Positions 2,296 to 46,368 of a stretch of 58,092 nt of DNA are shown here, in pieces (positions within the stretch are counted from its first letter, which is position 1; each line of letters begins with the position of its first letter). The notes below the pieces were generated by a model, which was not told where the DNA came from, ran no database searches, and saw only the letters and a list, made by a program, of their open reading frames with translations. A program made the translations under genes and the position numbers. Origin of the DNA: a virus. The stretch is from IMG/VR virus record IMGVR_UViG_3300042290_000649, positions 1 through 58,092 of that record. The stretch is one strand, 5' to 3'.

Positions 2296-2296
2296 C

Positions 2297-3217: not shown

Positions 3218-4149
3218 GTTTTCACCAAATACCAAACTCTTGCCCTATTGGCAGAGTGATTGTCGTGAGTGTGTGCTGCGGTTGCGTCTGCGGCCATTGA
3301 GCCGCCGTGCGTGTGCCCACTCACCGCTCCGGATGTGTTGGTGTACGAAGGCACTGTTCCGGTATAGGTGTGGCTATGGCCGCCGCTAGTGCCTACGGAC
3401 TCTGTGACCGTATGCGAGTGAGCATTGCCTCCAGAGATGTCCCCCACCGTGTGCGTGTGGCCTGTCGCAGCGGCCGATTCGTTGGTTAGGGATGTAGACA
3501 TAGAAATGGTTCCGACAGAGGCCGCAAGATTACCAACCGAGTGGGAATGTCCATCCGAAGATGTGGCGCCAACATACGTATGGGTGTGCCCGCTCGCAGC
3601 AGTCTGGCTTGAATACGTGGCTGTTGTTGTGTGGTTTGTTGCGTGAGTATGCCCGCCCTGCGAGTCGTCAGTAAACGTGTGCGTATGCGCTGCGTTGTCG
3701 GACGAGTGCGTAAGCGCAGTAAAGGGATCAGCAGACCCGTATGTCCAGACTTTTCCGCCAGAAGTGTTGCCAACCGCAACTCCAAGATTTGCGGATACCG
3801 CCCCAACAAGGCTGAGCCCCCTGAAATTGGGAACGTTAAACGTTGTGGTTCCGTCGCCAATGCCAAAGTACGTCCCAATTACTGCAAAAAGATCAGCGTA
3901 CGTTGTTCTGGACACGGCGCCCCCACTGCAATTGAGCCAACCGGCTGGCCTAGACGCTGGCGATCCAGTCCAGGCAATAACGGAGCCCGTTGGCATTTCT
4001 GTGGTTGTTACCCCGCCTAGGGCGCTCCACGTAGAGGCGCCCTTGACCTTTAACTCGTCAGTAAAACTGTTGTAATAAAGGGTACCCTCGTCCGCTGTGG
4101 GGTCCGAGGTAAATTCGGCGCTCTTAAGGGTGTTGACGAATTTAGGCAT
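3214..4149 (-). CDS. Tail fibre protein with phage tail-collar domain (paralogue 1 of 3)
   Basis: This 311-residue member is the first of the three tandem fibres. It has an attachment segment (YYNSFTDELKVKGASTW), a collar domain (RPAGWLNCSGGAVSRTTY, FGIGDGTTTFNVPNFRG), an HxH-rich shaft and the shared ending (VWYLVKT). No Shine-Dalgarno sequence precedes the ATG at 4147-4149. Instead a TATAAT box ends six bases before it, so the mRNA is probably leaderless. The promoter lies inside a terminator hairpin, so this gene starts a new transcription unit. Confidence 0.87.
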   Translation of the reverse strand: MPKFVNTLKSAEFTSDPTADEGTLYYNSFTDELKVKGASTWSALGGVTTTEMPTGSVIAWTGSPASRPAGWLNCSGGAVSRTTYADLFAVIGTYFGIGDGTTTFNVPNFRGLSLVGAVSANLGVAVGNTSGGKVWTYGSADPFTALTHSSDNAAHTHTFTDDSQGGHTHATNHTTTATYSSQTAASGHTHTYVGATSSDGHSHSVGNLAASVGTISMSTSLTNESAAATGHTHTVGDISGGNAHSHTVTESVGTSGGHSHTYTGTVPSYTNTSGAVSGHTHGGSMAADATAAHTHDNHSANRARVWYLVKT

Positions 4150-17812: not shown

Positions 17813-20800
17813 CTAACCTGAAATTGACCCTGTTGGGGACGAGATATACGAACCGCCTGATGCCCTGATGGCCCTACCGACAGCCTCTTCAACCTGCTCC
17901 GCAAGGTCTGCGGTATTCATATCCTGGGCATCGTTGATTGTAATGGTTATCGGAATCTGATTATACATTGTGACGGTTGTCTGTGCCCCGTTAATCCCCA
18001 CTGTCTGGATAGATGAGGCGAAGGCTGCGGCGTATTCTGCAAGTCTGGCCTTGAGTTCGGCGTTGAACTCCGTGATCGGCGGAACTGGCATGGCGGTAAC
18101 TTGCCTGTACTCATCCTCTGGCTCTTCAGAACCCAAGAAGCGAATTGCCTCGAGTTCTTTAAGTCTAGCCTTGAGACGATCAGACATTTCATCTTCTTCT
18201 CTAATCACCCTGTCCAGCACGGCGTCGTAAACCCCCAGGAGCATTGCGTGACCAACCATTCCAGGTGGCAGATTAGTATGACCGCTAACACCCTGACCAT
18301 CGTAATAGCCCCGAGGGTTATATTTTTCCGACACCGGCCGTTGCATGCGCTCCTCGAGCCCATCTGGAGTTTGTAGCAGCGACCGCATTGGGATTGTTGG
18401 GGCTACTGTTCCTGTGGTTGGAAGCGTGATTCCAGCAACAAGTGCCATTGCCTCTGCCAACTGATGGAATGCACCAATTGGACCCTGGAGGGAGTCTGCG
18501 TACGCCTCAAGGTTGGTCATTGTCGACTCAAACGCTGACCTGGTTGCCTCGATTGCGTCGGTCACGCTCTGCAATTGCTCGGTAGCCGCGTCGATTCCTG
18601 GAATTGGAGCAGTGTTGTCGTAGGTTGTCCCAAACAGAATCTTGTCGAGGGTGGTCAGATCCTTCTGTGCCGATCCAAGCGTTCCCGCAAGGTGACTCAT
18701 GGCGTCGTCAAGCGAGTCAACTGTATTAGAGAGTTCTCCAATCCTTGAGTCTGTGCTGTCGGCAAACTTTACATATTCCTCAAGATCAAACCTTGCAAGA
18801 ACGTCTGCATAGGTATCTCGGACCATATCCCGCAACTTCTTTACAGACTCTGCCGTTGGGGTTTCCCCAGAGGCCGCAATAAACTTGTTGATTACCTCAT
18901 CGCTAAGGTCTGCCTCAAGGATGCTTGCCATATTAATGTTGGTCTTTGTGGCAGTTTCAAAGTCTGTAAGGCCCTGTTCAAGGGTTCTCTGGGCAAGGAT
19001 GGCCATCTTTGCTGTGGTTCCAAAGGTGTTCTTGCCGCTCAGGAGCGCCTCTGCGTACTCAAGAACTGCGTACTTCTCTTTATCTTTTTCCGCTGTTCCG
19101 AAACCGCCTGCCGGCTTAATGCTCTTTAGATAGTCCCTAATTGCAGTAGCGCCAGTAAACACCTTGTCTAGGCCAGTCTTTGAATCCTTTACCCCAACGT
19201 CCGTATACTTTAGCCCGGCAGAGACTGCCTCGTTCATAAATGTTGCAAGCAAGCCGCTCTCTTCATTGTCTCCCCGGAATACGTTGAAGCCGCTGGCGCT
19301 GGTGAACTTGTTGAATGCAGAAAGACCGTTACTCAAACTTGCAGGGATACTGTACGTTCCGCCTTCTGCCGCAAATTGGCCAAACTCCAAGTTGCCCATC
19401 GTTTCACCAAGGGCGAGCGTTTGCTTGCCCATTGTTGCAACGTCTTCGGCATTAGCCAGAATGCTCTTAAAGATGTCTGTAGTAGACATCCTCTTCATTG
19501 CTTCGCTCATCCCAGGAAGGGTGCCCGTCATGGTCAGGCGCAGCATGTCGTTAAGTGTCTCGCCAGGAATTGAGTCCATGCCGAGGACCTTGCTTACTGC
19601 CTCAAACCTATTCTGCATTCTGGTGATCGAGGCGCTGTAAATCTGCTCCTGGGCATCTGTATTTTCCTGGAACTGCTTGCTGTATCGCTCCTTCTCATCC
19701 TCAATGGCCTTGAGTTCGTCATCCTTCTGCTTCTCAATGTAGAACTCGGCAAGGTTGTTCTTCGCATCGTAGAATGCCTTTGCTGCCTCAATCGGATCGG
19801 CGCTGTCCGATCGCATCTGCAATCCGGAAAGTTGGAGTTGCTCAAGAAGGCCCTTCTCTGTCTGCTCTTGCGTGCGCTTTCGATAGCGCTCATCGATAGC
19901 CTTTCCTTGCTCGTCAAGTTGCTTGATGTACTCATCGTGCGTGGTTTGCTGCGCCTTCTTGACTCGATCGTATGCCTTCTGCGCGACGCTTGCCATTGTG
20001 CTGAGCAGTGATGTGTTCCTTTGAATTGCCGCAGCCGTCGTTGTCCCCTGGTCTCCGCCGACAAGAGCGCCCTGCGCCTGTGCAACCAACTCCCTAATCT
20101 TGGTAAGTTCTTCTGCGGAATATCCGTATGGGTTGTCCTTCAACTTAGCGTTCAGTGAGTTTAGGTTTGTTTCCATTAACCTGATTGTTTTTCTTAGGGT
20201 TTCCGTCCTGGCCATAAAGGCTTCATATGCCCTCTGCTGGGCCTGACTTGTCTCGGACCACCATGCGTCACGCGAGGCGGCAACGGCGGCATCACCGAAG
20301 GACGTAACGTTCTGTTTTTCCATTTCTTCTAGTCTTGCCATAGAGAGGTCGTTTTGCTTTTCTGCAAGTTGCATTCCCTGCACCTTTGCCTGGGCCTCGA
20401 GTTGCGCCCAATGCACTGCAGACTGGCTAGACTTGTTTGCAATAGCCTGCAAATCGGCTTTACGTGCAAGGATTTGTAGGAGTGCCTGGTTATTGAGCAG
20501 TTCCTTGTTGCTAATGCTGATTCCCTGACCCTCAAGGATGGCCAGGCTTTGCCCAAGGTCAACCTCTCGTTCCGTTAGGTTAAAGATTTTATCCCTGAGT
20601 GCAGCCTCTCTCTCCATAAGATCAATTTCGTCTCTCGTGAGTGATTTATTTTGAGTGATCTTGGTTGTAATTATTGAAAGTTGGGCAGAGTAATCTGACT
20701 TAAATCGCGCCAGTGCAGCCTCGTCTTGTATCGCCTTATTCCTGATGGCCTCAGACGCAGATTGTCGCTTATCCTCAAGAACGCCAATCTTGAATACTTG

Positions 20801-23800
20801 ATATCTGGTTGCAAGGATTTCTTTATCAATTGCCCTAATTCTTGCTAGTTTCGCCGCCTCTGCCGTAGTGAGGATTGATGGCATTGCCTGCCTGTCTGTC
20901 GAACTACCAACGATTGCTCCGCCCTCATAGGTTCTAGTTGTGGTGGTCTTAAACTTGTCTTTAGTGGCGTCCTCAAGCATCTGAAGTCGGGACAATTCAG
21001 AGTCTCCGCCAAGTTTCTTTCTCTCGGCCTCAAGGGCGCTTAGTTTCTGTCGCTGCTCAAAGAATTGATCAAAGAGTTTGTAGCCAAGTTCTGAACCAAA
21101 CTCATCCATGAGTTCTCGTCTGCTTGACTTCAAGTCAACCTTTGGCGTCAGTTCTTTTGCTCGCTTATTAAACGCATCAAAGTATTCGACGGTCTTAGCA
21201 AGGGCATCTTTCAGTTGCTGGGCGGACCAGCCAACCATTTCGTCGATGCTCTTAATGACGCCAGCCTCAAGCATTGCATCAATCGGGTCAATTCGGCCAA
21301 TCTGGGTTAGCGTTTGCATGACGAGGGAGTTGTACTTTGTATCCCCTCCGCCAATTCCCGTTCCCATCTCCACTGCCTTGTATCCAAGCAGATCGGTAAA
21401 ACTCTTGCCCGGTTCGACGATAGTCTTTCCGTCTTCGCCCACTTTCTGGGTCGCCGTAACCTGCGCGGCGTCATACGAAACCAGTCGCGCAATACCGCCC
21501 TTGTACATCTCTCTAATATTTCCAAACTCGTCGGTGTAACTGTTGGCAGTTTCAACCTTGAGGAGAGTCGCATAATCAAGAAGTTTTTGTGAAGCCGCAG
21601 AAAGAAGAGCCCCGCCGTCTTTTGCTTCTTGCAGTTGCTTAATAACACCCTCAAAGTTTTTTCCAGATTGCAGGTACTGACGCAACTGCGCATCGTCAAA
21701 CGCTGTACTTGCATTTTGCTCTTTGTTAAACGCAAATCCTGCCAACTGAAGAACCTGGTTCATCCCTAGGCCCTTATCGCTTTTATTGGTTGGGTTTGTA
21801 ATTTCTGTAAGGTTGAGTGTTCTCAATTCGTTTGCAGTTTGTGGGAGATCTGGGAACATTGCCGCAAAAGCGTTTGGATCTACGCTGCCTGCGGCAATAG
21901 CGGCTTTTTGCGCAATGAGTTTGTCATATGCGGCATATTGCTCTGGGGTGGCACCGATGCCGCTTGAAGCCGTGGTTGGAACATCTACGTATCCCATGCC
22001 CGTTGCCTTTGATCGGTTTGCAACGTCGTCTTCACCGGTATAGATGTAATTTCCTGCAGAGTCTTTCTCAAAGATATTCTTTGTCATCCTCAGGTTCATC
22101 ATTATTTCGCTATTAATGGCAGCAATTGCGTTCGTCATTTCGGTGCCGCCATCGATGCTCCCGCTCTTGTCGTAGTCGTAGAGGGTCAAGATATCTTTGC
22201 GGGAAAGTTGGTTTGTCAATTTTTCTGTATTAACATCCTTTGGAAGCGACTGAACACCGTTAACAATGAAAGGAATTCCCCCAGCACCTTCGCCAGTCAG
22301 GCCAAGCGACTTGTCAATCTTTGACTGGAGTTCTGCTGCGGCCTTTGCATCTTCTTCGCTTAGGCCAAGTTTCTTATTGGCTTCAATTCGCGCTTTCTGC
22401 TGCTCAACGGCCGCCTCAGACCCGCGAATAATCGAGTCGGCCATGCTGCCCGCAAGTTCCCCGATCATGCTGCCGATTGCTGGCCCAATAATTGGTCCGA
22501 TAATTGGAATCATTCCACCAACGCCCATCCCAATCATTGATCCAATGCCGTTTCCGAGTGACTGGAATAGTCCGGACTTTTGAGACAACGTCTGCTTCAA
22601 GTCTGGTCCAAGGATGTTTCCCATGCCAAACATTTCTAGACCAGCAAGCACTGCATTTGGCATTCCTGCTGCGCGCGAAGATGCAGATCCGATACCGAGG
22701 AGTGCGCCGCCCTGGCTTAGCATCCCGCCAAGTCCTGCTAGTTTTCCAAACGCGCCACCACGCATCGTTCGGCGTGAGGCGACAACGTTCTCTGAAACTC
22801 TTCGCTTGGTAATATTGCCATCCTTGCCAGTGTAGTAGTACCCGCCATCTTCTCCCTGCTGAATTTGCGAAAGACCAGTTCCAGCCCCGCCAAGTTTCAC
22901 CGTTTGCAACTTATTAAGAAGGGGAACATTCTTGATGAGTTGCGCAGTCTTCTTGTTAATAACGTCATAGAAGTTTGACATTGCCGCAGCCATCTTCTGG
23001 ATCATGCCTACGCTTCCTCCCTTTAGCGCGGCCGATGAAATACCACGAGCACGTACTTTCTCAAGTTCTTCGCTTTCGCTCTTTGTAAGTTTTGAGTCAC
23101 CAGATGCGACTCGCTTTCCGACCTCTCCATAAATAAGTTTCTGAACTTCCGGCGGAAGGGTCTCAATTCTTCGCATGTCTCGCTTAGAGAGTTTTAGGCC
23201 ACCGGAGTGGAATTCCCCAAGCAGCGTGCCAATTTCGTCATCGCTGACCTTCCCAAGTTTCCGCTTATCCCCCTTTGCCCGCATAAGCATTGGGAGAATC
23301 ATGCGGCCTTCCTTGCTCTTCTTAAATTCTGCAATTACCGCATTTGCCTCACCTGTTTTTCCGGAATCCATCAGGCTCTTGTAGCGGGCCGCCATTGCCT
23401 CAACTTTTTCGAAGGCCTTGGTCATGACATAACTTGCTTCTCGCTCAATTAGGACAAGCGTTTCAAAGTTCTTACCCCATGCCGTTGTGTACTTGTTTGC
23501 ACTGGCATCAAGTTTCCCGTCCTTCATTCCTGGAATTTCAAGAATTCCGGCGTTGGATAGTTGCATGCCGAGGTCTTGCAGGACGCCGCCCTTCTGGAAC
23601 GACTCAAAGCGACTCTGCAATTTCTGACCAGTAAACACAGGGGACATGTGTCCTGGGCCGCTATCTTGATGCCTTAGCGTAAAGCCATCACCAAAGTCCG
23701 GGGCCATTGCACCAAAGATTTTCTCCCTAGGCTGTGTAAGGATTCCCTTGAGGAACCCAAGCGGACCACGGAATACTGTGTCCTCTACATTCCCAAGGAA

Positions 23801-26800
23801 GCCCTTAACCTTACCCCCTGCGGCAACCATGCTAGTTGCTCGTTCGCCGGTCTCCGGATCAGGGTACCCCTGGCTGTTGATCTTTTCTGTTGCGCGATTG
23901 TAGTTAATTATTGGCTTCCCATTTTTGTCCATTAGAACTTCGCCGTTGTCCCCCTTGACGTAATCCCTTGCCGAAATCTTTTCGGCCCTTAGGTCCGCGT
24001 GTCGGTCGGCGGTGAGTCTTACAGCGCTACCATATTTTGTAACGGCATCTGACGCGGAGTTCCACGCAGTCACAATCCCCGCAATTGGCTTTGCAAGCGT
24101 TGCGGTTGCCACCTGCCAAAGCATGGTTGCTGTCTTAAATGCAATAAATATACCGAGCAGCAAGCCAAGTATTGGGGCAAACGGGGTAAGAACCTTGAGC
24201 AGCAATGAGAATGTTCCAAGCAAGACAGTAAGGAACGGCATGAGTGCGCCAATTGCAACGGCCATGCTGGCAATAAAGGATGATATTGCAGAAGTTGCAA
24301 GTTCTTTTGCAATAGTTGCCAATGCGTCAGCAATGATAGTGATAAAGCCCTTGATTGAGTCGACAAATACCGAAAGGTATGTGCCAAAGCCAAATGTATT
24401 CTTTCTAATTGCGTCCGCGAGCCCAGAAATTGCCACAATGATTAATGTAATTGTTGCAATCATTGGGTTTGCCATAATGGCCTTTGCGAATATTGTTCCT
24501 AGCGTTGCGGCGGTTGCAAGCCCCCTGCCGACCTTGTCGCTAAGGATGTCGCCAATCAAAGCAAGGCCAGAGCCAACCTTGTCTACAATGTCCGTAAAGA
24601 CGGCGCCAAACTGGCTTCCGCGCTCAAGTGCAGCGCCAAAACCGCCAACGAAAACGTTAATGAATATCTGTGCAACCTTCTCCAGCGCTGGGCCAAACCC
24701 CTTGAGGCTATTAACAAAGTTGGCCACATTCTTTGCAAAACTTTCTATGAATATAGTGATCTGCTGGGACTTGAGCATGAACTGTCCAAGTTCAACAATG
24801 GTGTCTCGGACGGAGTCATAGAGCGGCTTGAATGCCATCGCCATGAAGTTTTGTGAAAGGTCGGCAATTGTTGAGAGGGCACCCGTCATTGTCCTTGATA
24901 GTCGGTCTGCAGATCCCTGGTATTGCCTGTCCATCCCCTCGGTGATTGCGCGAGCAGCAACAGAACCCATAAGGAATCCGCGCTTCGCCATGTTTCTGAT
25001 AAGTCCCTCTGCTCGCTTTGGATCTTTTAGCGTCTCGATCATTTGATCCATAGTGCCGAACGACTTTACAAAGTTTGCGCTCCCGATCACGCTTTGCAGA
25101 CGCTTCATTTCATCAATAACGTAATCCGGAAGGCCAGAAAGTTCTCCCATTGCGTACTTCTTGAGGGCAATAAGGTCGGTAAGCATCTTCTCGGATAGCA
25201 TTCGGTATCCCGCGACACCGGCGTTTGCCAACTGCATCATGTCGTTCTGGTAGACGCGACCAGCAGAGTTCATCTGCCCAAGGGCGTACGCAATTCTGTC
25301 GATCTTCTCGTCGTTTCCACCGAGCGCCGCGACAGCGTTGGAGATAGCGTTGACCATGTCTGGAATTTCTCGCGCTTCGAATCCGAACGCCTTCATCTTG
25401 AGCGAGGCCTCTACAAGCGGCTGGAACCTGAACGGCGTTACGTTAGCGATATCCCTGATTCGCGCCACCATGTTGTCGGCAGCCTTTGATGTAAGAAGCA
25501 GGGCCTCATTGAAGGTAAGGGCTTGCTCCTTCATGAATCCAATCTGAACCCCAACCGAGTTATATGCGGGGACCAGATCGTTTTCTGCGCTAGTTGCCGC
25601 TTGTAGCGTGTTTGCAAACAGCGTGTTGAAACCTACTGTCGTATTTTCAAGAACTTGGTTGAACTTAAATACGCCGGACTGCAGGTGCTCAACAACCGTA
25701 GCGATCTCTCGACCAATTTGCTGAACGAACAAGAATGTCGCAGCCCTTCCGACTTGTGTCTTTAGGGACCTGATAATTCCCGTGTTTACATTCATGTAGG
25801 TGCCGAGCGCCTTGGTTACGTTCTCTGCTGCCTGCTGTTGTTTCTGCATCATCAATGACGACTGGTCGATGTTCCCAGTTAGATGTAGAACCTGCGGTCG
25901 AAGTTCTCTATAAATATTCGAAAGTTGCTTGAGGTGCTCCATCCCCTTATAAACATTTTCAAGGTTTGGCGCCTTGTATCCCTCGTCACCCCAGCCACTG
26001 CCCCCACCGCCCGGTGCGCTTCCGTCACCTGCATCATCGCCGCCTGCGCCCTTACCGGCGGCGGTCGATTGAATCTCTTGCTGGATCTTGAGTTTTCCTT
26101 GACGCGACATTGCAATAAGAAGAGCAACTTCTTCTCCAAGTTTGTCAAAGTCTTCGGCTATCTTGATAAGTTCCTGACGCTTAAGACCATCTGGGAGCCA
26201 CGTAGCATTACCAATTCTCTGCGCAACAGCGGCCGGGGTCCCGGCATTTTCCTTCTCGCCCATGATTGGCATTGCTTTTTGCGACCTAAGTTTTTCGCTC
26301 TGCTCGGCGATTCCGTCTAGGTATGTCAGGAGGTCCTTAAATCCACCAACATTAGATTCAATAATTTGTGACTTAAGCGCATCCCTGTCGTAGGAGATTC
26401 CTACTTTTGCACCCTCATCCACTTTTGCGTTAACCATCTTTTCAACTTCTTCAGCAATTCTGGCGACAATTGCCTCAAGGGCCGGTAGTTTGCTGCCAAG
26501 ACCGATACGCGCAATGGCCTCGTTTACTTCGGCATCAACCCTAGAAGTATCATCGGGCTGCTGCCCATCTCCGGCTGGTGGCGTTGGCGGCGCTGGTGGC
26601 CTGCTTGGTGGCGCTGGAGGGCCTGCGGGGGCCGCTGGCCTTGCTGGCGCTGCTCCTTGCGCTGGAACCTGTTGCTGACTTTCTGCAACCGTAGCCCTCT
26701 CAACTGCAGCAACTCGATCCGACTCCACGGCGGACGACTCAATTGCGGCAGCCTCTTGCTCCGCTGCGACTGCCGCCTTCTTAGCGGCTGCGCGTGCTCG

Positions 26801-29800
26801 GCGCTGGGCGGCAACACGTTCTTTTCTTGCAGCGTTATCTGCAACAACCTGCGCGTCATACTCTTCCTTGGTTGGCTCTGCTGCTGTTTTGGGTGCCTCT
26901 GCAGCCTTTGTCGCAGCCTCTTCAGCCTTCTTTGCCTCTTCTTCTTTTGCTTTTGCTTTCGCTGCATCAGCCGCGTTCTTCCTGTCGGACGCTGCTTTTT
27001 CCCTTGCCGCTGCGGCAGCGGAGCGGGCCTGCTGATCATCGTGAATCTTTTTCAATCGAGCGGCATCAGCGGCGTTTAGTTCTGCAATCTTGGCCTCGTC
27101 TGCATCCCTCTTTCTCTTTGCAACGACCGAGGGGTCAACACGTGCCGCCTCGTCGGGGCTAAGGCCAACTTCTGCACCCTCATCAATCTGTGCCTCCATC
27201 GGTGTTTCCAGGCGCGCCCTTGGGTCTTGCTTCCTGGCCCTCTTGCGCGCCGCTTCAGCCCGAGTCCCAGCGGTCTTGAGTCGCTCCTCGTCCCGCTTAG
27301 CGTTTCTGGCCATGTCCCTTTCTTGCCTTTCACGAATGAGTCCCTCGGTCTGCGCTGGCGTTAGCGTGGCAAGTTCATCGGTGCTAACGCCAAGTTCTTC
27401 TGCCTGATCAATCTCTGCCTCTCGTGGAGTAATGAGGCCGGAAAGCATATCCGCTCCGGCCGGAGTCTTCTTCTTTCTTGGCTTCTTTTCTTTCTTCGGC
27501 TTGGGCTTCTCTTCTTCGACTGGGGCGTAGGTGTCTGATGAGTCCTCTTCGAAAGATCCATCATCATCTGGCACGTCATCTTCGGAAGTCTCCGCCGCCT
27601 GCTTGCTTTTCTCTTCATTTGCCGCAATGATGTTTTTCAGTTTGGCAATCAGGCTGGCAACGACGCGCTGCTCTCCCGCCGGTACCGGCTCGCCAGCCTG
27701 GCGTCGATCCTTTTGCACGTCCTCCTCGTTGAGCACCATGTCGAGCAACTCTTTGGCGTCTTCGTTGTCCACGTCTAGCGTGCTGCGTCCCGCAACAATC
27801 TGAGCCATGATGTTATTCCAGGTTCTAGGTTTGTCCGACTGCTCCATGCCGCGCTGCTCTATCAGGTCCTTCTGCGCAGAGGTCAGCGCCAACTTCGAAC
27901 CGCCCTCGCGCGGCTCGATGGACGCCCATTCAGGAGGTAGCGTTGCTACTGGCGGTGGGAGGCGGGGACCTGCCTCTACTGTTGTGCTATCGGGAATCCT
28001 ACGCTCCAATTCCGCCGCTGCTTCCCCGGGCGGCAACATCTGAGTCGTATCAACCTGAATCTCATCTGCCTGCTTGGCCCTCTCTTCATCGCGCTTCTTT
28101 TTCATCGCGGCAAAATCGAACGTAAGCGGAATTTCTTCCTCACCGCCTGCGCCGAGAGGAACTACTCCCCCTTCTCTCTTGATCTTTCCAAGTTGTTCCG
28201 GCCCACCCTCTGTCTCCATCTTCCCAAGTTGTACTGCGTCGTCTTCTTCCTCACCGAATCCGTAAATCTGTCCGCGCTGCGCCTTAAGGCGTGCCTGCAT
28301 TAGGAGAATGTTTCGCCTTATTCTTTCTATCGGGAAAAGTTTTATTGTTTTGTTGCCGTTGCCCTTATCCTCTTCCTCCGTTGGCATCTCACCGCTTTCC
28401 AGTTCAGGCATAACATTCGCCAGGGCCGTCAGCAAGATTTGCTCCGCGATGCGGTCATCTATAACTTTTCCGTCGGACTTAAGGCCGCCCATTTGATTTT
28501 GAATCGATAGGGCGTAGTCTATGATTTCTTGCGGTATTCCTGCAGATAGGACATCGTCAGTCCTGGATATACCCCCGCCCAGTCTTGTGAGCCCGGCAAT
28601 GCCCGCCGCGCTGGGCGGCATGCCGCCAACAAAACCTGCGATATCAGGTCCCTTGTTGATAATTGCGTTTTCCAGGGACTCTCTTACTAGTGCGTACTGC
28701 CGCTCATCGGCCTTTCTTTCCTCTACCTCTTTCTTATTTAGCAATCCTATTCTTGCTTCATCAAGTTTCGACTCTGACGCGATAAGGTCGTCAATTTGCT
28801 TATCAAGACCTTGTGCGGTTTCCCTTAGGGTTGCCCTATCTTCCTCTGATCCATTGTCGTATTCGTCGGAGTCGTATATTGCGTCAATCTGTTCTTGCAG
28901 AGATTGAATTTTTGCGCTTGACGCCTTCAAGGCTTTGTCTATTTCGGCCAACTTGTCTTGGTCCTCGCCCGTAAAGGCCCCTACAGACTCCTGACGAGAA
29001 ATCTTCTTGAATGACTCATCGTAATCATCGCTAAACTCATAAGTTCTACTAAGGGGGACAAACCCGCGACCACGCACTCGGTCATGCGTAATCTGCTGCG
29101 ATTGCATCTTTGCCCGCTGCTCTTCTGAATATTGCGGTAGAAGGTTAATTTGATCCGCTCCAGAATACTCACCTCCGCGATACGCTCCGAGGCCACGCTG
29201 CTCTCGTGCGACCCCCAGTTTTACTGCTCGCTCTCTTTGGTCAAAAGGAATTACCTCGGTCAAATCAAATGCAGTTCCCAGCACCTCCTCACCCGGCTTG
29301 CGCGGATCAGTGAAACTCTGATCCCACATGCCAATCCAGGTGTCGACACCTGCCATAATTCTTGCGCGGATTTGCGCTTCGTTATCCTTAATAAATTTAT
29401 TAAGCGCCTCGCCAAGCCCCTTTGTGGTTGCAACAGAAGTTTTTGGAACGTTCTGGTCTACTCCGCCCGCCTCTTGCTGCGTTCCGCCAACAAGGTATCC
29501 CTCTTCCGGCTCAACGTTTTCAACAATAATTTGACCTTGCTTATCAATAGCAAGTTTTCTTGTTAGGCCGTCAGTAACAGCGGCGAGGATCTCCTCTGTT
29601 TTCATTGCCTCACGTGGCGCTTCGGCTTCTTCTCCGTATCCGTATGTTCTACTAATGCCTCCCCTGACGGACCCGATTGATGACCTTCTTGCATCGGACT
29701 CTAGATATGCCTCCCTTCCTGGGGCGGAGAGTCCACCAAACTTCTCAGCAACAACGTCTAGTGTTTCCTGCGTGAAGGTTCCGGTCCTTGGCGCAACTCC

Positions 29801-32800
29801 TCGATGATGCCCTTGGGTGTGACCATTCAATTGTGCCATAACGTTTGCAAGGTACTCGCCCGTAAATTTGTTGATATGCGCTATCCATTGTTCATACGGA
29901 GCGTCTTCGCTAATCGCCGGAACGTTCATGACATAGTCAGAAAGGATTCTCCGTAGTTTTGCACTGACTTCGCTGGGCAAATTATTGCCTGAGTTCTCAA
30001 GCGTCTCTTGGATTTTCATCATGTAGTCATAGATCGCCTCGTGAATTGGCTCGATGTCGCGGCTCAGGCCAACCGACCCCCTGCCGCCAATTGCGGCCAT
30101 GTGCCCACCTTCGTGTGAGGCGATAGCGCCAAAGCCCATCATTGGAACCAGTTCGCCGTCCTTCTTTGTGCGCATTTTTTCTGCTACTTGGAGCGATGCG
30201 TATGTTTGGTATCCGCCGTCAGGCTGCTCAACGCCCCTTGTGACATGAGAGTACCCAGGAGCATTTTGATACGTATCGTCTGTGCTATCCACCGTCGTAA
30301 CGCTTATGCCACGATTGACCGTTGGAATCTTCGCAAGCAAAGCAAGCAGTTCATTTGCCGCAGCAAAGGCCGCCGAATCCGCCGATACTTCATCTCCCTT
30401 GTGGACAACGGTAACTATTGCCTTGTCCGGTAGCGGTGGCAGATCTCCCCTATCCGCCGTAGTTGCGTGCGACTGGTCTACTTCTACCTGGGAGACTTGC
30501 AATCCCATTGATGCAAGGTAGTCAAGAACTGTCTGCGCAATAATTTTTGCCTCTGCCAATGAAACATTTTCGTTGTCTTTTGGATCTTTAACCCCCTTAC
30601 GGGCTGCATCGTCTTGCAGGTCATACGGGATCATGCCCATCCCGATAGATTGAATCTGCTCCGGTGTCAGCCCTTCAAGCGACGTAATCCTATTGAATTG
30701 AGACATTGCTGGGGTAAGCGGCGCTGTTTCCATGTTCCGTTGCATGACTGGGGCTGGGCGACCGACGCCTTGAGATGTTCTTACCGGGTCAAATACGTCA
30801 TATCCGTAAACTCTTGAGGAGCCATCGCCAAGTTGTGGGGCATCCGAAGCAAGGTCAGGGATGTATTCCTTAAACGCCGCTATTCGTTGCTTAAGCAACT
30901 CAAGATCTATTTTTGCCTGTCGCTCTTCTTCTGCAAGTTGCGAAAGAATCTCTGGGTCTTGTCCTACCAACTCAGCAAGCAGGGGGAAATTGCCAAGAAC
31001 TTCCATAATCTTTGGAACTCCCTGGATAATCTCGGCAAACTTTGTTCGGGTCTCAGCATTTCCAAGGTCGAACTTCCCTGGCTCAGCAGAAAGTGCCTTC
31101 AGATCTGCACGCTTCGCCTTGCCACCAACGGTTCCCTCTCCCGGTATCATTGCCCGCAGGGCATCCGGGTCCAGTAGATTCCTTGCCATCGCCTCTGCAA
31201 GAATCTTAGTAATTTCTTCTGGATCACCAGCGGTAACTGTTTCCGCTATTGCGCGGAGTTGCGATTCCTCTGCTGCCGCACCGTAATCGCCAAAGGGAAC
31301 ACCTGGTACATCTGCGCGACCGGTACCCGCGCCCCTTGTCTGCTTTACCGAGTAGGCATTTTTTGATGCCTGGGTCAAGGCATCTAGATTTGTTATAAGC
31401 GGCGTTAGAATATCCCTTGCAACAACTGCGGCAAGCGCGGGGCGATCGGATTCTGAAACCGCACCAGAAGTCGCAGCGCCGCTTTTAACGAAATCTAGTG
31501 CGCCAAGAACGCCGCCGCCTCCCTGGCCAAGAGCACCAACAACATCCTTGATTCTCTGCATCGCCGCCGCCGATTCTCTATTCATCTCACTTGGGTCAAT
31601 CTTCATCTTCTGCACTGCAGCCATGATGCTCATTAACCCAACAAGGTGATCACGAAGTTCTGATGCAATTTCTGGCTTTACCGTCTTACCAGACGAAAGC
31701 GTTGCTGTAATTTCAGCAAAAAGTGCTTCAATATTCACCACCGTGCGATCGACAGTATCTACAAACTCGGCGAGATCTTTTCCAGTTGCGGTAACTGTTT
31801 GAAGTTCAATTCCTCTCTTGCCTGTTTTTTCGATTCTTGTCGAAAGCATGGCGGCAACAGGATTGCCGATTTCCTCGTTTCTAACTGCCCCATCTTCTTC
31901 TCGGCTGTATGATGGATACGGCGAAAAGAGTTGGCTTACCCTTGCCAGTGCCAGGGGGTTTTGAACCCCGGCAATTGGGCTTCTTGATGGCCTCAGGACG
32001 CCCGTTTCCTCATCCTCAATAACCCCAAGTTGCCGGTCTTCTTCTATACCAATAGCGGCAAGAAGACCGGAAATTCCACCAGATGCTTTTACTCCACCCT
32101 TTGAAATTTCCCTAAGTTCTGCGCGAATAGTTGCAAGGCGCTCCGCTTCTACCTCTGTCCTGTTTTCAATTGCAGCAAGTTCTGTTTCTTCTATCTCTAG
32201 AAGTTGCACTCGCGCTCTGGCAATTCCCTTCGAAACACCGGTTGTTCCAATTTCCCTAAGATCGCCAGACGGCAGTACATCGCTAACGCTTCTGCCGCCG
32301 CTGCGGAGCCTGCGCATCCGCTCTTCAACTCCTCGGTCTTCATCTTCACGGCTAGAGACCATTGATATTGCCCTAAGGGCGGGGCTGCTCTGAATTGCCC
32401 TGCCGATGGCGGCCTCGGCGGCGATCCTTGCGGCGCCCTCCGGTACCGGCTCTGGGGGCAACGCGCCGCCTCGCAGGACTTCCACATCGGACTTCTTCCT
32501 GCGCCCAGTTGCTCTACCCGGCGTGTACGCCTTAGAAAGGATTTGATTACGGAATTCAGCGACCTCTTCATCAGTTCTTGGGGCTGCCGCCTTGAACTCC
32601 TCAATCATAGTGGCGGCAATTTCCTTCATGAACGTCTTGATCAACTTGTCAAAATCGATCTCTCCGATCACATCTTGAACCGCCTCTTGTATCCTTCTTT
32701 GGGCATCGATAACTGCAGAGGAGTACGCAACTTTCGCTTCTGCAATTTTTCTATCAAGTTCTTCCAATAGGGGAGTTGAAGATCGCAGGCTCGGCGTCCC

Positions 32801-34441
32801 TGCTTTTTCTAGCCTATCCAACTGTTCACGGAGTTGAGCATCTGATCGACCTTCCGGGTCCCTGATTGGCGCGCCAGAAGTTTTGACGCGGCCGTCCATA
32901 AATATCGGCTTTTCATATTCGCCAATTTGCCCCCGGGCTTTTGCCAGTTCTGTTTCTAGTCTTGCAAGACGATTACGCAATGCAGCAACTTCTGGAGATC
33001 TAAGTACTGACTCCGCAGCGCGTGCATCTGCTTCAATTTTTTCCTCTGGTACCCACTGTGTTGGGGTTTTGCTTACTATTTCTGGCCTGTTATCCAGCCT
33101 TTTTATTAAATCAAGAAGTTTTGCTGACTCGGCCGCGCCGAATACCGCAGCAGCACCTCGGCCGCCACGAAGAGCAATTGTCTCTTCCTGGAAATCAATG
33201 CTACTTCGGGCTTCAAATTCTTGCTCTCTTGCAGCAGCAAGTCTCTCACCATAAGGGCGCGCAGCAGACTGGTCTTTCTTTTGTCGAAAACTTTTTGTCC
33301 CGTCTGGCTCCTCAACCACATCGTAAGCGCGCTTGTTGTATTCAGGTTGAACTTTTGCAATTTCTTCTCTTGCAGCAGCAAGTCTTGCCGAATCGGCTCG
33401 AACCTGCTCTTCTATTTTTGCTATTTCACCAGAGATTTGAGCAATGTGCCTAAGATTGCGCGTTAATTCAGAAATGTCGTCGGAAGCGCTTGCGGTGCGC
33501 AGTTTTTCGTATTGAGCCCTTGCCCCACCCTCAAGTTTTTCCGGCTTATCAACTCTGTTCTTCTTGAGGATCGCCTCCATTCCGGCCTTTGCCGCATCTT
33601 GCAAGGCCTTTATGGAGGAGTCGATTTCTTTCTGAACCTCTGGCGCACGAGTGCCAGTCTCAACAAGTATTTCTTTCTTTCCAGAACTTCCAACCCTTGT
33701 GGGTGCTTCCCCCCTGGTAGCATCTATTATCCTTTTGTTTTCAATCGTAAATTCAGCCTGGGGAACAATGGCACCCAATTCTTTTTTAAGTCGAGCAACC
33801 TCATCCTCGGCCTCTTTTAACGACTTTGGGTCGATAAGCGGTCCGGTGTACGGCTTTAGTCTTGTGGACTCCTGCAATGCAAGGGTGATGTCGAGTCTCG
33901 ATTGCTCTGCTCGCGCTGATGCGGCCGTCTCATTTTCCCTTGCAAGGGCGGCCGCTGCCTCGTTCCGTAGGCGGACTAATTCACCAAGCGCAGCGCGCTG
34001 GGAATCAATGGCCGACGAACTCTCCTCCTCAATCTTCTTAACGCGCGCGGAAGCGGCCTCCAACTCCGGCATAGAGTCAAGCCTGGCCTTTACCGCCCTG
34101 GCAACATGCGCGGCGGCAAGGGCCTCCTGCCTACCCTGTGCCTCTATCGCAGCAGCGCGAGCCGCATCGAGTTGAGCGCGCCTCTTTGCTGCTGCCTCTG
34201 CAAACGAAGCCGTTTCTTCCGGCGTTGCCATTTTGAGTTTTGAGGCAGCGTCTACGGCCTTTTTTGCCGTCTCCGCAGCGCCGAGCGCCGTCTCTGCTGC
34301 CTTAGTTAGCCCATCAATAGAATCGGCAACGCTCTCAATGGATTCGGCAACTGCGTCAATCTCGGTTGCTGACTGACTTGCGCCGACGACATCAATATTT
34401 ATCTTTATGTCTTGATCGTCGTTACCGCCGAAGTCATCCAT
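17813..34441 (-). CDS. Giant tail tape measure protein with embedded metallopeptidase motif
   Basis: At 5542 residues this is one of the largest tape measure proteins known. The start (ATG 34439-34441) follows AAGGGA. The first ~700 residues are Ala/Glu/Arg coiled coil. Around residue 1443 is HEGGH, an HExxH zinc-peptidase motif. A domain near 1700-1760 (DTWIGMWDQSF, GTAFDLTEVIPFDQRERAVK) resembles modules of phage polyvalent/MuF-type proteins. A long charged helix and Pro-rich linker span about 2380-2640. The tape-measure core lies at about 2930-3210 (NTTVGFNTLFANTLQA; AFGFEAREIPDMVNAISNAV). Hydrophobic segments follow at about 3320-3450 and near 3980. It sets tail length and probably enters the cell envelope during ejection. 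Confidence 0.93.
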   Translation of the reverse strand: MDDFGGNDDQDIKINIDVVGASQSATEIDAVAESIESVADSIDGLTKAAETALGAAETAKKAVDAASKLKMATPEETASFAEAAAKRRAQLDAARAAAIEAQGRQEALAAAHVARAVKARLDSMPELEAASARVKKIEEESSSAIDSQRAALGELVRLRNEAAAALARENETAASARAEQSRLDITLALQESTRLKPYTGPLIDPKSLKEAEDEVARLKKELGAIVPQAEFTIENKRIIDATRGEAPTRVGSSGKKEILVETGTRAPEVQKEIDSSIKALQDAAKAGMEAILKKNRVDKPEKLEGGARAQYEKLRTASASDDISELTRNLRHIAQISGEIAKIEEQVRADSARLAAAREEIAKVQPEYNKRAYDVVEEPDGTKSFRQKKDQSAARPYGERLAAAREQEFEARSSIDFQEETIALRGGRGAAAVFGAAESAKLLDLIKRLDNRPEIVSKTPTQWVPEEKIEADARAAESVLRSPEVAALRNRLARLETELAKARGQIGEYEKPIFMDGRVKTSGAPIRDPEGRSDAQLREQLDRLEKAGTPSLRSSTPLLEELDRKIAEAKVAYSSAVIDAQRRIQEAVQDVIGEIDFDKLIKTFMKEIAATMIEEFKAAAPRTDEEVAEFRNQILSKAYTPGRATGRRKKSDVEVLRGGALPPEPVPEGAARIAAEAAIGRAIQSSPALRAISMVSSREDEDRGVEERMRRLRSGGRSVSDVLPSGDLREIGTTGVSKGIARARVQLLEIEETELAAIENRTEVEAERLATIRAELREISKGGVKASGGISGLLAAIGIEEDRQLGVIEDEETGVLRPSRSPIAGVQNPLALARVSQLFSPYPSYSREEDGAVRNEEIGNPVAAMLSTRIEKTGKRGIELQTVTATGKDLAEFVDTVDRTVVNIEALFAEITATLSSGKTVKPEIASELRDHLVGLMSIMAAVQKMKIDPSEMNRESAAAMQRIKDVVGALGQGGGGVLGALDFVKSGAATSGAVSESDRPALAAVVARDILTPLITNLDALTQASKNAYSVKQTRGAGTGRADVPGVPFGDYGAAAEESQLRAIAETVTAGDPEEITKILAEAMARNLLDPDALRAMIPGEGTVGGKAKRADLKALSAEPGKFDLGNAETRTKFAEIIQGVPKIMEVLGNFPLLAELVGQDPEILSQLAEEERQAKIDLELLKQRIAAFKEYIPDLASDAPQLGDGSSRVYGYDVFDPVRTSQGVGRPAPVMQRNMETAPLTPAMSQFNRITSLEGLTPEQIQSIGMGMIPYDLQDDAARKGVKDPKDNENVSLAEAKIIAQTVLDYLASMGLQVSQVEVDQSHATTADRGDLPPLPDKAIVTVVHKGDEVSADSAAFAAANELLALLAKIPTVNRGISVTTVDSTDDTYQNAPGYSHVTRGVEQPDGGYQTYASLQVAEKMRTKKDGELVPMMGFGAIASHEGGHMAAIGGRGSVGLSRDIEPIHEAIYDYMMKIQETLENSGNNLPSEVSAKLRRILSDYVMNVPAISEDAPYEQWIAHINKFTGEYLANVMAQLNGHTQGHHRGVAPRTGTFTQETLDVVAEKFGGLSAPGREAYLESDARRSSIGSVRGGISRTYGYGEEAEAPREAMKTEEILAAVTDGLTRKLAIDKQGQIIVENVEPEEGYLVGGTQQEAGGVDQNVPKTSVATTKGLGEALNKFIKDNEAQIRARIMAGVDTWIGMWDQSFTDPRKPGEEVLGTAFDLTEVIPFDQRERAVKLGVAREQRGLGAYRGGEYSGADQINLLPQYSEEQRAKMQSQQITHDRVRGRGFVPLSRTYEFSDDYDESFKKISRQESVGAFTGEDQDKLAEIDKALKASSAKIQSLQEQIDAIYDSDEYDNGSEEDRATLRETAQGLDKQIDDLIASESKLDEARIGLLNKKEVEERKADERQYALVRESLENAIINKGPDIAGFVGGMPPSAAGIAGLTRLGGGISRTDDVLSAGIPQEIIDYALSIQNQMGGLKSDGKVIDDRIAEQILLTALANVMPELESGEMPTEEEDKGNGNKTIKLFPIERIRRNILLMQARLKAQRGQIYGFGEEEDDAVQLGKMETEGGPEQLGKIKREGGVVPLGAGGEEEIPLTFDFAAMKKKRDEERAKQADEIQVDTTQMLPPGEAAAELERRIPDSTTVEAGPRLPPPVATLPPEWASIEPREGGSKLALTSAQKDLIEQRGMEQSDKPRTWNNIMAQIVAGRSTLDVDNEDAKELLDMVLNEEDVQKDRRQAGEPVPAGEQRVVASLIAKLKNIIAANEEKSKQAAETSEDDVPDDDGSFEEDSSDTYAPVEEEKPKPKKEKKPRKKKTPAGADMLSGLITPREAEIDQAEELGVSTDELATLTPAQTEGLIRERQERDMARNAKRDEERLKTAGTRAEAARKRARKQDPRARLETPMEAQIDEGAEVGLSPDEAARVDPSVVAKRKRDADEAKIAELNAADAARLKKIHDDQQARSAAAAAREKAASDRKNAADAAKAKAKEEEAKKAEEAATKAAEAPKTAAEPTKEEYDAQVVADNAARKERVAAQRRARAAAKKAAVAAEQEAAAIESSAVESDRVAAVERATVAESQQQVPAQGAAPARPAAPAGPPAPPSRPPAPPTPPAGDGQQPDDTSRVDAEVNEAIARIGLGSKLPALEAIVARIAEEVEKMVNAKVDEGAKVGISYDRDALKSQIIESNVGGFKDLLTYLDGIAEQSEKLRSQKAMPIMGEKENAGTPAAVAQRIGNATWLPDGLKRQELIKIAEDFDKLGEEVALLIAMSRQGKLKIQQEIQSTAAGKGAGGDDAGDGSAPGGGGSGWGDEGYKAPNLENVYKGMEHLKQLSNIYRELRPQVLHLTGNIDQSSLMMQKQQQAAENVTKALGTYMNVNTGIIRSLKTQVGRAATFLFVQQIGREIATVVEHLQSGVFKFNQVLENTTVGFNTLFANTLQAATSAENDLVPAYNSVGVQIGFMKEQALTFNEALLLTSKAADNMVARIRDIANVTPFRFQPLVEASLKMKAFGFEAREIPDMVNAISNAVAALGGNDEKIDRIAYALGQMNSAGRVYQNDMMQLANAGVAGYRMLSEKMLTDLIALKKYAMGELSGLPDYVIDEMKRLQSVIGSANFVKSFGTMDQMIETLKDPKRAEGLIRNMAKRGFLMGSVAARAITEGMDRQYQGSADRLSRTMTGALSTIADLSQNFMAMAFKPLYDSVRDTIVELGQFMLKSQQITIFIESFAKNVANFVNSLKGFGPALEKVAQIFINVFVGGFGAALERGSQFGAVFTDIVDKVGSGLALIGDILSDKVGRGLATAATLGTIFAKAIMANPMIATITLIIVAISGLADAIRKNTFGFGTYLSVFVDSIKGFITIIADALATIAKELATSAISSFIASMAVAIGALMPFLTVLLGTFSLLLKVLTPFAPILGLLLGIFIAFKTATMLWQVATATLAKPIAGIVTAWNSASDAVTKYGSAVRLTADRHADLRAEKISARDYVKGDNGEVLMDKNGKPIINYNRATEKINSQGYPDPETGERATSMVAAGGKVKGFLGNVEDTVFRGPLGFLKGILTQPREKIFGAMAPDFGDGFTLRHQDSGPGHMSPVFTGQKLQSRFESFQKGGVLQDLGMQLSNAGILEIPGMKDGKLDASANKYTTAWGKNFETLVLIEREASYVMTKAFEKVEAMAARYKSLMDSGKTGEANAVIAEFKKSKEGRMILPMLMRAKGDKRKLGKVSDDEIGTLLGEFHSGGLKLSKRDMRRIETLPPEVQKLIYGEVGKRVASGDSKLTKSESEELEKVRARGISSAALKGGSVGMIQKMAAAMSNFYDVINKKTAQLIKNVPLLNKLQTVKLGGAGTGLSQIQQGEDGGYYYTGKDGNITKRRVSENVVASRRTMRGGAFGKLAGLGGMLSQGGALLGIGSASSRAAGMPNAVLAGLEMFGMGNILGPDLKQTLSQKSGLFQSLGNGIGSMIGMGVGGMIPIIGPIIGPAIGSMIGELAGSMADSIIRGSEAAVEQQKARIEANKKLGLSEEDAKAAAELQSKIDKSLGLTGEGAGGIPFIVNGVQSLPKDVNTEKLTNQLSRKDILTLYDYDKSGSIDGGTEMTNAIAAINSEIMMNLRMTKNIFEKDSAGNYIYTGEDDVANRSKATGMGYVDVPTTASSGIGATPEQYAAYDKLIAQKAAIAAGSVDPNAFAAMFPDLPQTANELRTLNLTEITNPTNKSDKGLGMNQVLQLAGFAFNKEQNASTAFDDAQLRQYLQSGKNFEGVIKQLQEAKDGGALLSAASQKLLDYATLLKVETANSYTDEFGNIREMYKGGIARLVSYDAAQVTATQKVGEDGKTIVEPGKSFTDLLGYKAVEMGTGIGGGDTKYNSLVMQTLTQIGRIDPIDAMLEAGVIKSIDEMVGWSAQQLKDALAKTVEYFDAFNKRAKELTPKVDLKSSRRELMDEFGSELGYKLFDQFFEQRQKLSALEAERKKLGGDSELSRLQMLEDATKDKFKTTTTRTYEGGAIVGSSTDRQAMPSILTTAEAAKLARIRAIDKEILATRYQVFKIGVLEDKRQSASEAIRNKAIQDEAALARFKSDYSAQLSIITTKITQNKSLTRDEIDLMEREAALRDKIFNLTEREVDLGQSLAILEGQGISISNKELLNNQALLQILARKADLQAIANKSSQSAVHWAQLEAQAKVQGMQLAEKQNDLSMARLEEMEKQNVTSFGDAAVAASRDAWWSETSQAQQRAYEAFMARTETLRKTIRLMETNLNSLNAKLKDNPYGYSAEELTKIRELVAQAQGALVGGDQGTTTAAAIQRNTSLLSTMASVAQKAYDRVKKAQQTTHDEYIKQLDEQGKAIDERYRKRTQEQTEKGLLEQLQLSGLQMRSDSADPIEAAKAFYDAKNNLAEFYIEKQKDDELKAIEDEKERYSKQFQENTDAQEQIYSASITRMQNRFEAVSKVLGMDSIPGETLNDMLRLTMTGTLPGMSEAMKRMSTTDIFKSILANAEDVATMGKQTLALGETMGNLEFGQFAAEGGTYSIPASLSNGLSAFNKFTSASGFNVFRGDNEESGLLATFMNEAVSAGLKYTDVGVKDSKTGLDKVFTGATAIRDYLKSIKPAGGFGTAEKDKEKYAVLEYAEALLSGKNTFGTTAKMAILAQRTLEQGLTDFETATKTNINMASILEADLSDEVINKFIAASGETPTAESVKKLRDMVRDTYADVLARFDLEEYVKFADSTDSRIGELSNTVDSLDDAMSHLAGTLGSAQKDLTTLDKILFGTTYDNTAPIPGIDAATEQLQSVTDAIEATRSAFESTMTNLEAYADSLQGPIGAFHQLAEAMALVAGITLPTTGTVAPTIPMRSLLQTPDGLEERMQRPVSEKYNPRGYYDGQGVSGHTNLPPGMVGHAMLLGVYDAVLDRVIREEDEMSDRLKARLKELEAIRFLGSEEPEDEYRQVTAMPVPPITEFNAELKARLAEYAAAFASSIQTVGINGAQTTVTMYNQIPITITINDAQDMNTADLAEQVEEAVGRAIRASGGSYISSPTGSISG

Positions 34442-44163: not shown

Positions 44164-46368
44164 ATGGCAGACGAACGCCCCAGCCTTCTGGATCGACTAC
44201 TTGGTCGAACCGAGCAGGTGGTTACTGCGCCCAAATCCGAAATCGGAATAATCCCGGACTGGGAGAACAGCCCCTACGCCCGTGCCGCAGTCGGGCAGGG
44301 CGGCGTAATGAAGCGCAGCGTTGCACAGTTGCGACGCTGGTCCAGAAACAACCCGTGGCTGCGCGCGGCAATTAACCTGCGCCGCCAGCAGGTGAGCCGT
44401 GCCCGTTGGGACATTGTGGATCTTGACGGCAACTCAAAGCCAAATCAAAAGATTGTTGACGAGTTGCGCTACATGTTCCGCCACCCAAACTCACGAGGCG
44501 ATTCATTCCGTTCGTTTATTGAGCCGGTGGTTGAAGACTTGCTCGTCCTCGATCAGGGCTGTATTGAAGTTGAGTTGACGCGTGGTTCGCGCGTGGGCAC
44601 AACTGGCTCGAAGAAGATTGCCAACCTGTGGCCAAAAGACGCAGGATTTATTGCGTTCGACCAAGATTGGGACGGGACGAGGAAGAACGACCCTCGCTAT
44701 TTCGAACTAGATGCGACTGGCAAGATCGTTGCCGAGTACCGCAATGACGAAATGGTTGTCTTGATTCACAACCCGGTAACGTATTCGCCGCTTGGTCTTT
44801 CGCCGCTAGAAGTTCTTGCTGAGACTATTGAGGCCGACCTCGCCGCCGCTGCCTATAACTCAAAGTCCGTCATGCAGGCCGCGCCTCCGGGAATCATTGA
44901 CCTCGGCGAGGGCATTCGCCCCGACCAGGTTGATCAGTTCAAGGCGTATTGGGAAGCAGAAATCGGCGGCAAGAGCATGGTTGCAATTGTTGGCGGCGGT
45001 AAGGGCGTTAAGTGGACGCCACTTGGTGCGTCAAACCGCGATATGCAATTTATGGAGTGGCAGATTTATCTGGCGCGAAAGATTTGTGCGGTGTTTGGCG
45101 TTCAGCCACAAGACATTGGTATTTCTTTTGACGTCAATCAGAGCACCGCAGAGGTTGGCGCAGCGTTTACTGCCGACAACGGCATCGCGCCACTGCTCGA
45201 CCTTATCGCTGAGTACCTAACCCGCGAAATCATTTGGCGCTTTGACGAGACCCTGCGCTTTGCCTACACCGATGTTGGTCGCGCAAGTCAGTCCGCAATT
45301 GCCGAGTACTACAAGGCTGCACTTGGCGGCCTTCCGTGGCTTCGCATCAATGACGCGCTTAAGGAGCGTGGTCAGGACGGCATTGGCGAGTACGGTGACG
45401 AGATTTGGGTAATGTCGCCAAAGGGCTACATGCCAATGTCTCTCTATATTGAATATCTTGAGCAAACATTGCTTGGCGAGAAGCCAGACGAAGAGCCCGA
45501 AGGCGAAGGCCCAGATGAAGATGGCCCAGATGAAAATGGCGGCGGCGAGGGGGAACCATCCCCCGAGGACGCAACAGACCCAGAGACAATGCGTCCGGAA
45601 AACCCACAGATGGGACCGAACCAGCAACCAGCAGACCAGAAGGCCGCTGGTAGGCCTGTAATCACGTGCGACATTGATGGAACGCTAACAACGCCAAGCG
45701 GCCCAATCGAAAACACTGTTGATTTCCTGCTCGACCAGGCGGATGAGTTCGCAATCTACATTCTTACCGCACGAAGCGAAAGCAAGCGCAGTGAAACAGA
45801 GGCAATGCTAAGCAAGTTTGATGTTCCATACGATCGACTCATCATGAACGACACGGGCGAGCCGCAACCCGTGTTCAAGAAGCGCGTGATGAAAGAGTTG
45901 ATGGCGAATAACGACATTGCTTTTGCGATTGAGAACGACGAGGCAGTTCTTGCCGAGTATCGAAAACTTGGCGTGAAGACAATGACTCCGGCCCAGGTTC
46001 CTGATGATCCAGAGGATGCAGAGAAGGGATTGCTTAAGTCGGTTAACCTCACCGTTCCAAATGGCGTCAAGGTTGAGGCCGCGCGTGGTCTTCTTTGGCG
46101 CAAGCAGTTTGGTCGCGGCGGTATTGGCCCAGGTCAGCGCACCGCGCGCATGCTGATTGGCAACAGGATGACAATTGCTCGCGTGAAGAAGATGAGCGCT
46201 TATCTCGCTCGCCATGAAGTAGACAAGAAGGGCGAAGGATTTAGCCCAGGAGAGCCAGGATATCCATCAGCGGGCAGGATCGCATGGGCCCTGTGGGGTG
46301 GCGATGCTGGTCAGTCTTGGACTGCCAAGGTAATGCGATCATTAGAGGCGCAAGAGCGAAAGGACTAA
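44164..46368 (+). CDS. Portal protein fused to a HAD-type phosphatase domain and a C-terminal DNA/assembly domain
   Basis: This 734-residue protein has a portal domain at residues 1-430 (NNPWLRAAINLRRQQVSRA; YSPLGLSPLEVLAETIEADL; FGVQPQDIGISFD). An acidic linker (EEPEGEGPDEDGPDENGGG) follows. Residues ~498-610 are a HAD-type domain with D503-I-D505-G-T (CDIDGTLTTPSGP) and IYILTARSESKRSE, like the 3'-phosphatase half of polynucleotide kinase. The last ~105 residues (EAARGLLWRKQFGRGG; ARHEVDKKGEGFSPGE) form a domain often found in phage head-maturation proteins. The portal ring conducts DNA. The HAD domain could act on DNA ends or nucleotides, which is inference. Confidence 0.88.
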   Translation: MADERPSLLDRLLGRTEQVVTAPKSEIGIIPDWENSPYARAAVGQGGVMKRSVAQLRRWSRNNPWLRAAINLRRQQVSRARWDIVDLDGNSKPNQKIVDELRYMFRHPNSRGDSFRSFIEPVVEDLLVLDQGCIEVELTRGSRVGTTGSKKIANLWPKDAGFIAFDQDWDGTRKNDPRYFELDATGKIVAEYRNDEMVVLIHNPVTYSPLGLSPLEVLAETIEADLAAAAYNSKSVMQAAPPGIIDLGEGIRPDQVDQFKAYWEAEIGGKSMVAIVGGGKGVKWTPLGASNRDMQFMEWQIYLARKICAVFGVQPQDIGISFDVNQSTAEVGAAFTADNGIAPLLDLIAEYLTREIIWRFDETLRFAYTDVGRASQSAIAEYYKAALGGLPWLRINDALKERGQDGIGEYGDEIWVMSPKGYMPMSLYIEYLEQTLLGEKPDEEPEGEGPDEDGPDENGGGEGEPSPEDATDPETMRPENPQMGPNQQPADQKAAGRPVITCDIDGTLTTPSGPIENTVDFLLDQADEFAIYILTARSESKRSETEAMLSKFDVPYDRLIMNDTGEPQPVFKKRVMKELMANNDIAFAIENDEAVLAEYRKLGVKTMTPAQVPDDPEDAEKGLLKSVNLTVPNGVKVEAARGLLWRKQFGRGGIGPGQRTARMLIGNRMTIARVKKMSAYLARHEVDKKGEGFSPGEPGYPSAGRIAWALWGGDAGQSWTAKVMRSLEAQERKD

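Follow-up and report, generated by a model that had tools for sequence, protein, structure and literature searches.

The window, that is, the whole stretch of DNA analysed here, comprises 58,092 nt of the IMG/VR virus record IMGVR_UViG_3300042290_000649 (positions 1 to 58,092). A single open frame of 5,542 aa is located on its minus strand (17813..34441), and the region of about aa 2980-3100 matches both the TMP_3 family of Pfam (PF20155, E=1e-10) and the tape-measure families of PHROGs (down to 1.4e-14). Based on these matches and on a cluster of hydrophobic segments, the frame is identified as a tape measure protein (TMP). The TMP_3 domain occupies aa 2984-3086 (25184..25492, minus strand), and the hydrophobic segments are clustered at aa 3317-3445 (24107..24493, minus strand), within the TMP core. 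The C-terminal half of the frame constitutes the TMP part, for which 197 records of cultured phages give distant TMP matches, each below 60% identity. Ahead of the conserved core lies an N-terminal extension (aa 1-2880; 25802..34441, minus strand; boundary approximate), and these roughly 2,900 residues diverge rapidly among relatives. A TMP of 5,542 aa is very long, and would measure about 830 nm if it were wholly one helix at 1.5 Å per residue; frames of 5,597 and 5,545 residues are present in the related loci L004 and L009, respectively.

Some other genes of the window could also be recognised. The portal protein (734 aa, PF04860) is encoded at 44164-46368 on the plus strand, opposite to the capsid gene, and its C-terminal part shows a weak HAD_PNKP match below the cut-off. 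On the minus strand, three adjacent genes (1345-4149) each contain a phage tail collar domain, and a tail fibre-like protein of 2,257 aa (11031-17804) carries a C-terminal S74 chaperone domain. Neither a tRNA gene nor an Rfam match exceeding the gathering scores is present in the window as a whole. The capsid protein has no relative in cultured phages, and no host was found for the virus.

Within the extension, the original prediction noticed an HEGGH motif at 30101-30115 and proposed a zinc peptidase around it. The motif is exactly there, on the minus strand, at aa 1443-1447, and is predicted to be both zinc-binding and catalytic. It is the sole HExxH of the 5,542-aa protein, in which 0.012 would be expected from composition. 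Based on an alignment with related domains (A6, see below), the motif is placed in a zincin-like metallopeptidase domain of about 250 residues (aa 1291-1543; 29813..30571, minus strand; boundaries approximate). Searches of Pfam, PHROGs and PDB sequences with the window's own domain returned no match; in particular, none of the wall-hydrolase families in Pfam (M23, lysozyme, transglycosylase) was matched. Similarly, no relative of the domain was found among cultured phages or bacterial genomes.

The first close relative of the domain region in viral contigs is L001/L004 (78-79% identity), with a TMP frame of 5,597 residues. A search with the TMP core then gave 77 loci, among which the nearest clade, L004-L010, shares 69-98% core identity with the window's TMP. 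By profile comparison, the HExxH domains of these TMPs are sorted into groups A (the window's), B, C/F, D and E. In the nearest clade, an HExGH domain is present in the TMPs of L004, L005, L006, L009 (with its near-copy L008) and L010, while the contig of L007 does not include the N-terminal half of its TMP. The five other group-A domains share 81, 36, 26, 22 and 22% identity with the window's in A6. Loss of HExxH among close homologues was looked for, and HExGH was found to be kept in all six group-A domains. The invariant columns of A6 include H57 (=H1347), H153, E154, G156, H157, E239 (=E1529) and A242 in the numbering of the first sequence, as read from six sequences only, two of which are 81% alike, with large gaps between HExxH and E1529. 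The invariant H1347 (30401..30403, minus strand) lies where the second predicted strand ends (VVHKG).

Which residue could complete the zinc site? The decapeptide PIHEAIYDYM (aa 1465-1474; 30020..30049, minus strand) had been offered as the source of the third ligand. It does lie about 20 residues past HEGGH, but it is not conserved: E1468 is replaced by Arg in L005, and L006, L009 and L010 lack the decapeptide, so that E1468 was rejected. The conserved candidate is predicted to be E1529, an invariant Glu 86 residues past H1443, which opens a shared motif, E-x-[ILMVF]-A-[NDE]-x4-[ILMA]-x-G-[HY] (EYLANVMAQLNGH in the window, aa 1529-1541; 29819..29857, minus strand). In the six domains, this motif starts +86, +86, +89, +90, +50 and +47 residues from the first His of HExxH, with +47 in L010. 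It should be noted that the Glu of L009 and L010 falls under E1529 only in an alignment of sequences cut off directly past the motif, as in A6; with longer sequences, none of three MAFFT modes aligned the two. Among 67 distinct large ORFs of the retrieved loci (158,000 residues), the deduplicated set from which L010 is absent, the motif occurs eight times, five times in group-A TMPs and three times in another ORF family. The five copies in TMPs are all located 50-90 residues past HExxH.

Between the window and L006, the N-terminal extension could be aligned in islands only, including aa 904-1104 and 1305-1455, at 27-28% identity; the HExxH region is therefore a conserved island in a fast-changing part of the protein. 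The dN/dS ratios between the window and L004 are 0.30 for the domain, 0.24 for aa 1-1224 and 0.02 for the TMP_3 region. That is, the domain is under purifying selection, with no unusual constraint of its own.

The motif also recurs well beyond group A. The 67 ORFs contain 21 HExxH (0.46 expected) and 11 HExGH (0.04 expected), while control patterns in the same ORFs range from 0 to 2 occurrences (e.g., H..EH 2, HE.H 2, HE...H 1). Its occurrence follows the size of the protein: HExxH is present in 10/10 distinct complete TMPs of at least 4,000 aa, in 7/14 of 2,500-4,000 aa, and in 0/11 shorter ones. Profile comparison of group A with group B gives P 0.00024 across 25 columns, and the matches of A to the other groups are weaker; reversed controls of the group-A comparisons gave 0.06 to 0.65. 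The group D profile matches mostly zincins in the PDB, with the catalytic domain of ATLF type as the best match (E 0.004), which is also the best, though weak, match for a profile of L009 and L010 (E 0.19). Group A resembles ATLF-type enzymes (peptidase family M34) in having HExGH and a downstream E..A motif, a resemblance only: the A6 profile led by the window gave no ATLF match in PDB sequences, nor did a Pfam scan of its members.

The structure models are poor, with a mean pLDDT of 34.2 and 47.8 for AF2 with two-sequence and six-sequence inputs, respectively. In the second model (pLDDT 47.8), a helix (5-21) is followed by strands 24-32 and 50-58, with H1347 near the end of the latter, by a helix (147-161) that holds HEGGH, and by a helix (226-248) that holds E1529. 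This order of elements is that expected of a zincin and, at low confidence, is only consistent with one. Accordingly, the mixed alpha/beta surroundings originally proposed for the motif are plausible, in the order of helix, strands, HExxH helix and helices, but in models of low confidence. Fold searches by Foldseek and VIA-align 2 with these poor models as queries yielded no zincin above noise; a hit to lethal factor involves a different part of that protein and was taken as chance.

The closest parallel may be found in the polyvalent proteins of phages, in which zincin metallopeptidases (MPTases) are described as the commonest domain, with autoprocessing or an attack on host proteins proposed as their function (Iyer et al. 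2017, PMC5512222). These MPTases, such as those of the N4 virion RNA polymerase and P1 DdrB, have HEXXH and a Glu located in a second C-terminal helix; one clade also has a His that ends strand 2 (PMC5512222). The window's domain likewise has HEXXH and a later Glu, in a helix that is predicted, and the invariant H1347 is comparable to the His of that clade, the strand being predicted too. In contrast, the Asp described for a polyvalent MPTase clade, three residues past HEXXH, is absent from the window's domain, and the comparison of the window-group profile with N4 MPTases by hhalign is weak (P 0.005; reversed control 0.06). Both kinds of domain are situated inside a giant phage protein, and in related proteins both are accompanied by ddrB-ParB. 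The carrier here is a tail tape measure, whereas the term 'tape measure' occurs nowhere in the main text of PMC5512222.

Further domains of the polyvalent type are found in TMPs related to the window's, not in the window's own. The ddrB-ParB domain (PF18763) exceeds the curated cut-off in four records with TMP-length frames (L063, L064, L072 and L075), and is matched below the cut-off in TMP-size frames of five more (L067, L071, L073, L074 and L076). PF00454 (PI3/PI4 kinase) is above the cut-off in the TMP of L034 in one scan (29.4 vs 27.1 bits); a genome search with different scoring gave matches below the cut-off, in L034 and in six other records. Neither domain was seen in the TMPs of the window, L004, L005, L009 and L010, and no second effector-type domain was recognised in the window's TMP by Pfam or alignment. 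In the record of L006, ddrB-ParB is matched once, weakly, in a frame of 120 aa away from the TMP. Considering that zincin-like domains are present in related giant TMPs, some with DdrB-ParB-like or kinase-like domains, these TMPs may also deliver enzymes into the host. Such a context fits host-targeted and TMP-processing functions alike within a polyvalent protein. We tentatively suggest, at somewhat less than an even chance, that the giant TMPs of this uncultured group are polyvalent: their extensions would carry zincins, and in some cases DdrB-ParB or kinase-like domains, into the host, where the zincin would release them or attack host proteins.

As separate observations, the kinase-like match of L034 is located at about aa 686-731 of its TMP, with a DRHxxN...IDNEHAF stretch, and similar TMP matches are present in L040, L041, L044, L045, L047 and L051, at two places in L040 and L047. 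Three HExxH are present in the single TMP of each of L034, L040, L041 and L045, with one motif in the C-terminal part.

Then, what could a metallopeptidase do in a tape measure? Several features can be read from sequence: HEGGH is conserved together with a downstream Glu, it is embedded in a TMP, HExxH recurs in related TMPs, and some of these match DdrB-ParB or kinase families. It is therefore probable that this giant tape measure contains a zincin metallopeptidase domain, and the earlier suggestion of a zinc-peptidase-like TMP domain unlike M23 or lysozyme is supported. The domain would be of the gluzincin type: H1443, H1447 and, from a later helix, E1529 would hold the zinc ion, with E1444 as the general base. 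The TMP is taken to pass through the tail and to exit before the DNA, and would thereby bring the domain into the envelope or cytoplasm of the host, as has been proposed for polyvalent zincins. In T5-like phages, the TMP is described as spanning the tail lumen, about 40 Å wide, and leaving on ejection (PMC5717097, PMC10713586), and as being processed proteolytically near its C terminus (PMC10713586). Ejection and processing of this kind leave cleavage of the TMP itself and cleavage of a host protein as the two main options. We consider it about an even chance that the domain is a zincin ejected with the TMP, most likely cutting the TMP itself so as to detach the extension from the core during tail maturation or after ejection; host-protein cleavage would be nearly as likely. 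Self-cleavage is put ahead because HExxH tracks TMP size, which is a matter of judgement rather than a result. In addition, several folded copies of a domain of 250 residues would hardly fit into such a lumen; consequently, folding may not take place until after ejection, or the extension may be removed or located somewhere else.

As for the alternatives, an active zinc peptidase whose main target is a host protein, that is, an effector carried in by the TMP, is a possible but less favoured explanation. The extension diverges fast (34% identity) compared to the conserved core (about 70-98%), several zincin groups occur in related TMPs with up to three HExxH per protein, and other possible effector domains are found nearby in these TMPs, all of which would suit an effector. 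The strict dependence of HExxH on TMP size, on the other hand, is also compatible with self-processing. It is quite unlikely that the domain cuts peptidoglycan cross-links at entry, like the M23 or lysozyme domains of other TMPs. HExxH gluzincins usually cut protein, which argues against such a substrate, as does the lack of a wall-hydrolase family match for the window's domain. The position of the domain in the N-terminal half also speaks against it, as the distant C-terminal end is the one reported at the T5 tail tip (PMC5717097), even though muralytic domains are known in the TMPs of T5, TM4 and phiIPLA35 (cited in PMC6116005) and reported for enterococcal TMPs (PMC10194240). Slightly more doubtful still is a zincin fold that lacks activity (a pseudo-peptidase) and is kept for structure or binding; the absence of special constraint on the domain between the window and L004 would agree with it, but all six diverged domains keep HExGH and the downstream Glu unchanged. 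Finally, HExxH might have arisen by chance in disordered or coiled-coil sequence, to which the missing family match and the poor models might point, but this is highly improbable and is contradicted by the low expectation in the window's TMP, the enrichment across TMPs and the conservation of the motif in relatives at 22-36% identity in A6.

If the favoured reading is correct, the tape measure would serve both as a ruler and as a vehicle for early-infection enzymes, and TMP proteolysis, for which the cited account of T5-like phages names no enzyme, would gain an in-cis candidate for this group. Both ideas can be tested with the alignment of six domains and the residues named here. Enzyme-like domains within tape measures are already known from the wall-cutting TMPs of T5 (pb2), TM4 and phiIPLA35, but the domain here is in the N-terminal half and matches no M23, lysozyme or transglycosylase family. 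A virion protein with a fused effector-like domain is likewise reported for the MuF-toxin head proteins (phage AXL1, PMC9206674), in which an ADP-ribosyltransferase-like domain is joined to a head protein rather than a zincin to a tape measure. No zincin in a TMP was found by full-text searches of an open-licence library; as far as these can show, the giant TMP is a novel carrier of zincins.

A short motif, YG[FY], was also observed in these proteins. It is almost missing from the TMPs of L006, L009 and L010 (0, 0 and 1 copies, respectively). In the window's TMP it is located at aa 1212, 1600, 2060 and 4772, with two copies flanking the zincin, and the four copies there and the six each in L004 and L005 compare with about 0.45 in shuffles.
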